NCBI RefSeq assembly: GCF_011075055.1
Contig: NC_058145.1
Span: 16,117,894 to 16,181,893, forward strand
DNA from: Mangifera indica
Lineage: Eukaryota > Streptophyta > Magnoliopsida > Sapindales > Anacardiaceae
Direction of reading: 5' to 3'
DNA length: 64,000 nt
The notes under the pieces are model-generated. The model saw only the letters and a list, made by a program, of their open reading frames with translations, had not been told where the DNA came from and searched no databases. The position numbers and the translations under genes were made by a program. Each line of letters begins with the position of its first letter. Within the stretch, counting starts at the first letter, position 1. Below, one piece after another: positions 56,454 to 62,640 of the stretch.

Positions 56454-57692
56454 ATGTTATTATCACAGATGAGATCTTTCTATCAATCGGTCAGTTTGTT
56501 TTGGTGAGATCCTTCCTTTTATTTACTCGAATGTCGCTTTGGTGTTTTTGTTGATACAGTGTTAATGATTTAATTTAATATCTTTCATTTTTGTATCCAT
56601 AGATGCATAGATATAGTTAAAAATTATTATTCTTTCACAAGCAAAAACCTTATTCCAATTGCAATTACCTCAGTTCTGTTTAACTGTAACTCCATAAACG
56701 GTTTAAGAAAATTCAATGGAAACCCGTTTGGCCAGCGGAAATTCTTCCCCATCAAAGTCCAGGCCAAATCTTTGGAGCTGCCAATGCCAATCACAGCTAC
56801 AAACTTGACGACCAAGTCGAAAGACAGTTTAGCCAGTTTCCCATTTGAAGAATACAGGAGGATGAAGGTGAAGCAAATCAACAAGGAACTAGATGAAGCA
56901 GTTCCATTGCAACATCGGACGAAATTTCACGAGGCAATGAGGTACACTTTTCTCGCCGGAGGAAAACGTATATTTCCTACTCTATATTTTGCCGCCAGTG
57001 AGTTAGTCGGAGGAGATGAGCATTTAGTAATGCCAATGGCTTGTGCAAAAGAAATCATCACGACAATGCTGGTGATTCAGGATGACCTCCCTTGCTTGGA
57101 TAACGACGATATCAGAAGTGGCAAGCCAACCAACCACAAAGTTTTCGGAGAAGGAACCTCAGTTCTAGCTTGTCAAGCTCTTCTCTGCCTCGCCATTCAG
57201 CATTTTACAACCAAGACAAAAAACGTTATTTCCCCTGACCACCTTGTTCGAGCCATTGAAGAGATATGCTCAGCTCTGGGGTCAGAAGGAATCTCGACGG
57301 GGCAGTTTCAGGACATAAACAGTGAGGGAAAACAAGTAAGTTTGAGTGAATTGGAGTTCATTCATATGCAGAAAACTGGGAAGTTTGTAGAGGCGTCAGT
57401 TTTTTGTGGGGCTTTAGTGGGCGGAGGAAATGAAGTAGAGATGCAGAGATCGAGGAAGTATGGGAGGTGTGTAGGGTTAGCATATCAAGTGTGGCCGGAG
57501 ATGGGGGAGAAAGCTGAGAGGGATTCGGTGCGTGATAGGGCCACATATCCAAAGCTAATAGGCGTGGATGAGTCGAAGAAGTATGCCAGACGATTGGTGG
57601 TTCAAACAATTGAAGAGCTTGCTTACTTTGATTCTACAAAGGTTGTCCCCTTGCACCATATGGCTAGCTTTGTTATATCTTGTGGGCATTAG
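56454..57692 (+). CDS. GGPP synthase-like protein lacking the second Asp-rich motif
   Basis: My model is exon 1 56454-56503, intron 56504-56641 (GT-AG), exon 2 56642-57692, giving 366 aa. The large ORF alone has no good upstream ATG. The short exon supplies one in frame and completes an N-terminal, transit-like region. The first Asp-rich motif is present (DDLPCLD, about 164-170). The second, DDxxD, is missing: after YQVW (codon at 57492-57494) ten residues present in the neighbour at 61259 are absent, an in-frame loss of 30 nt. The IPP-binding GGKRxRP is altered to GGKRIFP, and the CxxxC of the sister genes is YFAAS. Synthesis of GGPP by this protein is therefore unlikely. It may be a pseudogene in progress or a non-catalytic partner. 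The frame is otherwise open. Confidence 0.8.
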
Positions 57693-59022
57693 ATCATTTT
57701 CGCCTTTGCCGGCGGTGGGCTGTTTCTGATTTAAACCATGCAACCGAATGGGCGGAGCTGGCTTTAGGCCTATAGAGGCCCTGCTCTATATTTTTCTGTA
57801 TTGTACCGTTTTAAACTTAGAAGAAATTTCCTTGGCCACCCCGTATTTTAATCCAATAATGACATGTTTTAAAGTAATGTTATATTTCAATTAGGAAAGA
57901 AATTTATAGATATGAATTTTTAAATCATATAAACTTTTAATTAATTTATTATATAAGTATATGTATATATAAAAATTATTATCCTTTTTTTAAGACTTTG
58001 TAGAATCAAATGAAGAGCTTGCTTACTTTAATTTAATGAATGCATACATACATTTTTAATGAAAACTTTTCTAAAAGAAAGTAATTATCATTTTTTCCCG
58101 CAAAAAAATATAAATTTTATATGTATTTATATTGAATATATAAAATATATTTATGGGATTAATATTGTGTTGATATTACCAATCTGACTGATCAGACCAA
58201 CATAAACTCAAACTGGCTTTTTTACTAGGTGAAGTCAAGGTATAGAAATGAAAACCACAATGGCTAGATTGATTGTTTATGAAACTTTAAAAAAGAAAAA
58301 AATTAACATTTAGCCTTCAATTGGAAGACTAATTAACGAGGCTTTGATATTGAATTGTGATGTATTATTGTTATTATTATTACATTATTAAATAATAAGT
58401 ATCAATCAATATGTCAATTCTGGAATATTAGTTGCATACTAAACTCCTTTATAATCACTGTATATATTCGAGTTGAGTTGGCCTTCGTTCCGAAACCATC
58501 TTCATAGACATGCAGATTTCGTCTGCTTCTGACCGAGAATCAAGCTTCCATGTTCTTCAATATTCTCCCCTTACATCATTTTTAATCCCATTTTTATATT
58601 TTCTTCAATTCATATCTCATCTATTAGTCTCTGTATATATATTAAAATACACAGCTGGTGTAAATGCAAAAATTATGTGCTGCTTTTGCTTGGAAAATTG
58701 CAGCTTAATAGTAGCTCTTCATGACTTCATTGATTAGAAAATATTTGACCTATTCCTGCAACTGCAATTCTTGAAGGTTGAAACACAGTAAGTAAATAAT
58801 GACAACAAAATTATAATTCCCAAAATTGAAGAGGTGACCCATTTTATATTATAACAGAAGAAAACGCCAAAGAATACACTAAATTCCAATTTGTGCAAGA
58901 AGGAATAATCATCAATGTTGCAACAAATTATGTCTGGAACCAACACACTGTCATTAATATTTCATTAATCATCTTCTACATATAAGAACAATAATAAAAA
59001 TACTGAACCCATCTTCAAATCA
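57693..59022. other. Intergenic region within the GGPPS array
   Basis: AT-rich. No ORF with family resemblance. A TATA-like CATATAAG near 58979 is about 44 bases before the next ATG and is too close to be certain. Confidence 0.4.
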
Positions 59023-60114
59023 ATGGCATTCTCTGCTAGTCATTGCAATTCATCATTCCTCCCAAAGAAACCTATCAATGGTTTCAAAAATCTTGTTAAG
59101 ATCCCGTCTAAGCAGTTCAAACTTTCCCCTGGGAAAATACAAGCCCACCTCCATGCTGTAAACTCAGATTTGCAGCAGCTATTGACATCTGAAGATTCGT
59201 TCTCCAAGGTGATAGACTTGCCTTTGCCCGTATTTGAGTTTGAAGAATACATGACTGTGAAGGCAAAACAAGTTAACCGAGCACTGCAAGAGGCAGTGCC
59301 CTTGCAACGTCCAAACAAAATCCATGAAGCTATGAGATACTCTCTTCTCGCCGGCGGCAAGCGCGTCCGCCCAGTTTTATGCATTGCTTCCTGTGAATTA
59401 GTCGGAGGAGACGAGTCCTCGGCTATGGCAACCGCTTGTGCCCTCGAGATGATTCATACGATGTCGTTGATTCACGATGATCTCCCATGCATGGACAACG
59501 ACGATCTTCGAAGAGGAAAGCCGACAAATCACAAAGTCTTCGGTGAAGATACGGCGATTCTCGCTGGTGATGCTCTCCTCTCTCTCGCCTTCGAACATGT
59601 AGCCACTAAGACTATTAACGTTTCTCCTGAACGCGTGGTTCAAGCCATTGCTGAACTGGGTTCAGCCGTGGGATCAAAAGGGCTTGTTGCAGGGCAAATT
59701 GTGGACATTGACAGTGAAGGGAAAAACGTGAGTTTGGCCCAACTGGAATACATTCACATACATAAAACTGCAAAGCTTTTAGAGGCAGCAGTTGTTTGCG
59801 GAGCAATAATGGGAGGAGGAACCATGATTGATATTGAAAGAGTTAGAAAGTATGCGAGGTGTATAGGGCTGTTGTTTCAAGTTGTGGATGATATACTTGA
59901 TGTTACGAAGTCGTCGACAGAATTGGGGAAGACCACAGGGAAGGATCTGTTGAGTGACAAGGCTACATATCCGAAGCTGATGGGCATAGAAAATGCTAAG
60001 AAATTTGCCTCTGAACTTGTGGCTGAAGCCATTGAAGAGCTGGCTTATTTTGAAGATGCGAGGGCTGCACCATTGTGCCATTTCGCTAACTATATTGCTC
60101 GTCGACAAAATTAA
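59023..60114 (+). CDS. GGPPS: Geranylgeranyl diphosphate synthase, canonical, plastid-targeted
   Basis: An intronless ORF of 363 aa. Residues 1 to about 60 are a Ser/Lys-rich transit peptide. The catalytic part starts at about 72 ([17 protein letters not shown]). It has the IPP-binding GGKRVRP (112-118), CIASC (120-124), the first Asp-rich motif DDLPCMD (152-158) and the second Asp-rich motif DDILD (289-293). The enzyme joins IPP to allylic diphosphates to make C20 geranylgeranyl diphosphate, the precursor of carotenoids, chlorophyll side chains, gibberellins and diterpenes. The residues before the first motif (HTMSLIHDD) fit C20 product length. The length matches plant plastid GGPPS. It is the only copy of the array with every motif intact, so it probably carries the function. 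Confidence 0.96.
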
Positions 60115-62305: not shown

Positions 62306-62310
62306 ATTAT

Positions 62311-62640
62311 GTGAGTTGATTGGGGGAAATGAATCTCTGGTAAGATGTCAATAGCTTGTGCAATAGAGTTGATATTGGCGACTGGTATCATTCTAGATAA
62401 TCTTAGAGGGAGGCAAGCCCAAAAGCCACAAGGTTTTTACTAAGGAACCTCAATTATTTCCAGTCAAGTTCTCATTTGCCATTCTATTGAGCATATTGCA
62501 ACCAGGAGCATTGTGGAGATACGCTCAGCATTTGGCTCAAACTGAGCTTGGGCAGAGTAGTTTTTGGATGCCAACACCGAGGGACAAGAAGTTTCAGTAC
62601 GTTGGTTTTCATTCACACGAAACAAAACTAGGAAATTATT
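62311..62640 (+). pseudogene. Fourth GGPPS copy, heavily decayed fragment
   Basis: Directly after the third gene, shifted frames give CELIGGNESL-like text (ELIGGNESLV at about 62315), then GGKPKSHKVFTKEPQLFP, then a segment resembling ICSALGS...GQ and SEGKEVS, and finally HSHETKLGN (matching HGNKTGK). Order and spacing follow the gene at 61259, but the first Asp-rich motif is destroyed and several stops and frameshifts intervene. Both the N- and C-terminal parts are missing. Confidence 0.75.

Follow-up and report, generated by a model that had tools for sequence, protein, structure and literature searches.

Two outer genes in an array of geranylgeranyl diphosphate synthase (GGPPS) genes of Mangifera indica encode proteins that, judged by their residues, are without part of the site for isopentenyl diphosphate (IPP). 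The array lies in a 64,000-nucleotide stretch of contig NC_058145.1 (hereafter the window), and its genes are named here by the positions 56454, 59023 and 61259. Loss of the IPP site, and not the state of the Asp-rich motifs, is the main feature of the array. This loss is old, being common to both outer genes and to relatives in Pistacia, Xanthoceras, Acer, Melia and Citrus, and the clade that these sequences form is very probably a class no longer able to elongate prenyl chains. The protein at 61259 probably does something other than build geranylgeranyl diphosphate (GGPP). The explanation favored here is that it works as a terpene-synthase-like enzyme, to which, as a whole chain of steps, a probability of roughly 0.35 is assigned.

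The three window proteins were run by tblastn against the 64-kb window. Four GGPPS-related loci were found on the forward strand (56658-57689, 59023-60111, 61259-62302 and a degraded one at 62345-62638, all tblastn extents), in agreement with a preliminary description of this DNA, which had overlooked a fifth, antisense relic (Table 1). PF00348 was the sole Pfam match for all three proteins, and the domains of classical plant terpene synthases were absent from them (E up to 0.001). The canonical protein at 59023 has GGKRVRP, DDLPCMD and DDILD, and 61259 has GGKRFAP, DDLPCMD and DDILD, which confirms the earlier reading of these two. The 56454 protein has GGKRIFP and DDLPCLD, and its second Asp-rich motif has been deleted in frame with ten codons. 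The absence of this motif had been recognized, but the loss of Arg from GGKRxRP in the same protein, and of the His of EMIHT from both outer proteins, had been missed.

In the numbering of the canonical 59023 protein, which is used throughout, these residues are Arg116 and His145. They are replaced by Ala and Val in 61259 and by Phe and Thr in 56454. In human farnesyl diphosphate synthase (FPPS), Arg60, Gln96, Lys57 and Arg113 are reported to contact the pyrophosphate of IPP, and Leu100 and Phe239 to touch its tail (PMC7815940, PMC4106277; these and the other papers cited by PMC number are represented here by excerpts). Human Arg60 and Gln96 were matched by motif to Arg116 and His145, and six contacts were mapped in this way: Lys113, Arg116, His145, Arg164, Leu149 and Phe285. 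All six are kept in 59023, three in 61259 (Lys113, Leu149 and Arg164) and one in 56454.

The distribution of these losses was followed in an alignment of 193 homologues and the three window proteins (196 rows; P numbers denote rows). Arg116 or His145 was missing from forty rows, in P0123 through a gap only; 30 of the forty were picked by eye and then tested on trees. A profile built from 26 of these 30 retrieved no further member among its best 120 of 7733 hits. It supplied 12 new rows, ten of which retain both residues, while Senna tora P0203 and Acacia crassicarpa P0205 have neither. The 30 rows formed one clade in an IQ-TREE analysis of 92 of the 196 rows and were recovered with active-site columns removed in 67 of the 208 rows (bootstrap/SH-aLRT 100/99); another tree was made from 74 of the 208 rows. 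In a FastTree analysis of all 208 rows, again with active-site columns removed and subject to a long-branch warning, the clade comprised exactly these 30. P0014 was trimmed to 345 residues in the trees, and P0004, which consists of two fused copies, was excluded from the canonical set in column counts. No row with Arg116 and His145 intact fell inside the clade in trees of up to 208 rows.

The clade is nested in the GGPPS tree, adjoining canonical genes. It contains the two window proteins, 11 other rows and 17 named rows, all from Sapindales (Pistacia 3, Xanthoceras 5, Acer 2, Melia 4 and Citrus 3). The nearest named relatives of both 61259 and 59023 are from Pistacia, the canonical protein clustering with P0026 and P0038. 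Under the younger root, the separation of Sapindaceae from the other sampled families is dated to about 122 million years ago (PMC10028101), so that the clade would be at least about that old, provided that inheritance was vertical. As claimed previously, the two outer genes resemble each other more than either resembles the canonical one: of 283 catalytic-domain columns, 184 are identical between 56454 and 61259 (65.0%), and 157 (55.5%) and 170 (60.1%), respectively, are identical to 59023; identities of 61259 to canonical alignment rows are 48-60%. Duplicated GGPPS genes have lost catalytic motifs unequally, as had been proposed, but a local series of stepwise decay does not describe them, since the IPP-site loss is common to both outer genes and to relatives in five genera. 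Recent tandem copying with stepwise decay was also rejected: synonymous divergence (dS) of the outer pair is 0.70-0.82, the two lie apart within the clade, and flank matches are short, at most 59 nt with a best E of 0.001 among the matches listed.

Outside the clade, Arg116 is lost and His145 kept in seven scattered eudicot GGPPS-like rows (P0019, P0079, P0082, P0105, P0120, P0125 and P0177), which suggests that Arg116 has been lost repeatedly. P0203, P0205 and P0124 have lost both residues and group together, likely a second, independent double loss. On the trees, the double loss occurred at least two times and loss of Arg116 at least nine times.

Residue conservation within the clade differs between the two halves of the active site. 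Between one and four of the six IPP contacts are kept per clade row; all six are kept in 153 of the 165 other rows. Arg116 and His145 are each found in 0 of 30 clade rows, a count that is partly circular because the rows were first chosen by these two residues, and the replacements are mostly hydrophobic or small. Leu149 (8/29) and Phe285 (7/29) are also mostly gone, and Lys113 (22/30) and Arg164 (26/29) mostly remain. The reference set comprised 132 columns with at least 95% conservation across the 165 rows outside the clade; in the clade, 65 of these columns reach at least 90% and 29 fall under half. Four of the six IPP columns are lost as against 29 of 132 overall (P 0.021, partly circular in that the rows had been selected by two of the six). 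On the allylic and metal side, Asp152, Asp153 and Asp158 of the first Asp-rich motif, Lys248 and Gln286 are each found in 29 of 29 rows with the residue present. The second motif begins with Asp in 20 and Asn in 7 of 27 rows, and its next two Asp residues are found in 27/27 and 28/28. The first motif, Lys248, Gln286 and these two Asp residues are held in every clade row with the residue present, save two rows in which the second motif is deleted. Invariant columns make up seven of nine at the allylic site compared with 33 of 132 overall (P 0.0009). Thr249 (17/29), Lys303 (18/29) and Lys307 (7/30) are held only partly. The clade also has near-fixed residues of its own, including Trp288 (23/29), Ala284 (27/29), Gly278 (27/29) and Gly296 (27/27).

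Under the favored explanation, clade members such as 61259 would no longer add IPP. The 61259 protein would bind an allylic diphosphate (geranyl diphosphate, GPP; farnesyl diphosphate, FPP; GGPP; or longer) via Mg2+ on both Asp-rich motifs, ionize it, and yield a terpene product, either hydrocarbon or alcohol, a working mode like that of the terpene synthases derived from isoprenyl diphosphate synthases (IDS) in rust fungi and insects. An IPP-independent allylic enzyme is favored because those enzymes changed their IPP motifs. Of the features that mark such terpene synthases, descent by duplication is found in 61259, as is substitution of IPP motifs with the first Asp-rich motif kept, the substitution being partial (three of six contacts kept). 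In a rust-fungus GGPPS, the substitution R81P, at the position equivalent to Arg116, abolished GGPP formation and brought a gain of terpene-synthase activity, although not to the level of the natural enzymes; a fungal enzyme whose second Asp-rich motif is intact is likewise a terpene synthase (PMC7484799). The Melampsora IDS-like terpene synthases resemble the clade in being GGPPS duplicates that lost the IPP-site Arg and kept the first Asp-rich motif, some with the second intact (PMC7484799). They differ in that the plant origin is independent, the clade is also without the neighboring His, and terpene-synthase activity in the clade is a prediction from sequence. Insect terpene synthases derived from GGPPS or FPPS are likewise marked by changes in the IPP-binding motifs of duplicated IDS genes, with the first Asp-rich motif conserved (termites, PMC13143122; sandfly, PMC10962984). 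The insect enzymes lost more IPP contacts, and those of termites are without conservation of the second motif, whereas 61259 has three of six contacts and both motifs.

A partly kept IPP site could also mean that 61259 is still a prenyltransferase, either elongating with a weak IPP site or joining an allylic diphosphate to a different acceptor, for example dimethylallyl diphosphate (DMAPP) or a non-isoprenoid. The retention of Lys113 and Arg164 in most clade rows, the two intact Asp-rich motifs of 61259, and the seven eudicot rows outside the clade that have His145 without Arg116 are in line with this reading. It is nevertheless improbable, given the absence of Arg116 and His145 from the entire clade, their mostly hydrophobic or small replacements, and the abolition of elongation by R81P in the fungal enzyme (PMC7484799).

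Several points weigh against a terpene-synthase role for 61259. Its signature is partial, three of the six mapped IPP contacts remaining, and insect terpene synthases are reported to have kept only three or four of 15 (PMC10962984). Loss of Arg116 may be tolerable, since it has occurred at least nine times, in some cases in otherwise canonical proteins. A poplar small subunit with both Asp-rich motifs had no activity with IPP plus DMAPP and left the products of its partners unchanged (PMC6651613); because this subunit is inactive, kept Asp motifs do not prove catalysis. No terpene-pathway gene was recognized by eye among open reading frames (ORFs) of at least 110 aa in positions 1-56400, an inspection made without a family search and in which short exons can be missed.

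The poplar protein belongs to an established plant theme of inactive small subunits (PMC4034038, PMC6651613), and for 61259 the role of a non-catalytic partner has almost the same likelihood as that of a terpene synthase. In this case 61259 and its clade would dimerize with a neighboring canonical GGPPS and alter its activity, product length or location, having evolved apart from the known small subunits. The CxxxC motif, reported to be important for the pairing of large with small subunits (PMC6651613), occurs once in 61259, as in 59023, and once in 22 of the 30 clade rows. Canonical and clade genes also seem to be adjacent in other genera. Four Melia members appear to lie together with the canonical P0041, as inferred from record data and not from maps, and the Xanthoceras genes of both kinds bear locus tags close in number (026574, 026577; 026317, 026322, 026338), again a reading of names and not of maps. 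Against a partner role, the remaining eight rows have no CxxxC, none has two, and the strictly conserved metal-binding, Lys and Gln residues would be unnecessary in a purely structural protein. The preliminary description had cast the 56454 product as the partner of 59023; because 56454 is among the rows without CxxxC, it is the weaker candidate. The known small subunits of types I and II (SSU I and SSU II) are, like the clade, GGPPS-related and without the expected GGPPS activity, and SSU II has the first Asp-rich motif (PMC4034038, PMC6651613); they differ in having two CxxxC motifs, and the loss in the clade is in the IPP site. Membership of the clade in these types was rejected, no clade row of the 30 having two CxxxC motifs; as the trees were without SSU sequences, the clade is set apart from them by CxxxC alone.

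Structure prediction with AlphaFold2 confirmed the fold for 61259 and 56454, with mean confidence (pLDDT) of 81.8 and 76.6 and low confidence at residues 284-287 and 106-114, respectively. The models match plant GGPPS and GPP synthase large subunits, the best Protein Data Bank match of 61259 being 3krf_D (TM-score 0.94 by target length). Canonical plant GGPPS structures (5e8l, 3krf and 2j1p) resemble 61259 in fold, length and Asp-rich motifs and differ in having Arg116 and His145, as well as at the 29 conserved columns that fall under half in the clade. A match in predicted fold cannot decide between activities.

The outer genes could instead be pseudogenes or dying copies in a birth-and-death turnover, as the two relics in the array would suggest. 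Ratios of nonsynonymous to synonymous divergence (dN/dS) were estimated over the catalytic domain by three methods and are averages for the two lineages together across a long span of time. They were 0.27-0.34 for 56454 and 61259, 0.24-0.28 for 56454 and the canonical gene, and 0.18-0.23 for 61259 and the canonical gene; in both comparisons with the canonical gene dS is near saturation (1.07-1.53). The preliminary description had named dN/dS as a check on the outer genes, and long-term values of 0.18-0.34 are not neutral; its suggestion of a possible role other than GGPP synthesis is also supported. When the 61259 catalytic ORF was evolved neutrally in silico, by substitutions only, 95 of 2000 frames were free of stops at 0.1 substitutions per site, six at 0.2 and none at 0.35, an end point of comparable scale to half of the outer-pair dS (about 0.35-0.41). 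With an open frame, dN/dS below 1 in all its pairs, the close full-length Pistacia relative P0002 and residue-specific conservation, 61259 is unlikely to be a pseudogene. Its true start is probably at 61298, because MASTLLRNS is the beginning of its Pistacia orthologues, P0002 and P0003.

The evidence for decay bears more directly on 56454, which has neither a continuous start nor the second Asp-rich motif, CxxxC or Arg164. The ATG at 56454, previously taken as the gene start, runs into a stop after 17 codons; it could connect to the main ORF only via a proposed intron (56504-56641) that fits the splice consensus and leaves the spliced frame open. In the window the ATG at 56603 does not share the frame of the main ORF, although P0046, identical to this copy at 350 of 356 positions, uses the same start in frame. 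The 56454 copy also has no MAS start, unlike 61259 and the majority of the clade members listed. P0046 also has the second-motif deletion, and the close relative P0081 retains NDILD, so that the deletion would be a later step than the IPP-site loss. P0081 is called from MRYTF only, on a 3,989-nt contig, which hints that its 5' part is damaged. The body of 56454 is open at the dN/dS given above, an average that says little of the recent past. This copy would be an offshoot in which the second metal site disappeared later. It most likely has no catalytic activity and is probably decaying; a role that needs no catalysis is possible. Directly upstream of the gene lies an inverted repeat (56158-56323; 57-nt arms, 79% complementary, 52-nt gap) that looks like a small mobile element.

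The residues also bear on how these genes are named. Several members of the clade are annotated as GGPPS (Melia P0006, P0008, P0010 and P0015; Pistacia P0002 and P0011) or, in the case of Citrus P0022, as a GGPPS large subunit; by residue they should not make GGPP, and pathway reconstructions based on names are possibly wrong. Predictions of product length made by others for GGPPS-like genes of plants are reported to have been fully successful (PMC10563020). No plant IDS-type terpene synthase and no described Sapindales GGPPS clade was found in the open literature, to which the search was confined; PMC9537409 and PMC10887521, in the excerpts, cite the fungal paper only. If the clade turns over allylic diphosphates, it would, within this literature, be the first plant terpene synthase newly derived from a prenyl diphosphate synthase, and the origin of the one from the other would become testable in a living plant clade. 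If its members are subunits, they would be distinct as a class from the small subunits known so far. It is tentatively proposed that a lineage of terpene synthases arose in Sapindales from a GGPPS through loss of the IPP site over 100 million years ago, in parallel to the IDS-derived enzymes of insects and fungi; given the double loss in P0203, P0205 and P0124, plants would then have taken this route more than once.

Table 1. Features of the GGPPS array, in window positions.
Feature	Position	Strand	Description or basis
Canonical GGPPS	59023..60114	+	363 aa, intronless, motifs all intact
IPP-site-deficient GGPPS-like protein	61259..62305	+	348 aa; likely start 61298; both Asp-rich motifs and CIASC retained; Arg116 to Ala, His145 to Val
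Second IPP-site-deficient copy, main ORF	56642..57692	+	Arg116 to Phe, His145 to Thr, Arg164 to Ser; no second Asp-rich motif; no CxxxC
Possible first exon of 56454 copy	56454..56503	+	GT/AG consensus and frame only
Junction of in-frame ten-codon deletion in 56454 copy	57494..57495	+	Sequence; alignment with P0081 (NDILD present)
GGPPS relic with stops and frameshift	62345..62638	+	tblastn
Short antisense GGPPS relic	54919..55008	-	tblastn with two queries; inverted repeat I2

The relic at the 3' end of the array matched at 35% over 120 aa (E 4e-12, stops inside), with a second piece in a different frame at 62301-62444. The antisense relic, of which 61259 is the closest match, aligned at 61% over 31 aa (E 2e-4) with one stop. 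A terpenoid gene cluster was considered and rejected on inspection by eye of the ORFs of at least 110 aa in positions 1-56400, which look like unrelated genes and a Ty3/gypsy element. By eye, we take these neighbors to include an AT-hook protein (15207-15710, reverse strand), a myosin-binding-like gene (21700-24706, reverse), a valyl-tRNA-synthetase-like exon (36472-36843, reverse) and a pentatricopeptide-repeat-like piece (53948-54247, forward). The same ORF translations occur at 1114-2022 and 6567-7475, 5453 bases apart. The second copy lies in a Ty3/gypsy-like ORF of 1691 aa (3488-8563, reverse), and the pair is perhaps a duplicated or nested element.

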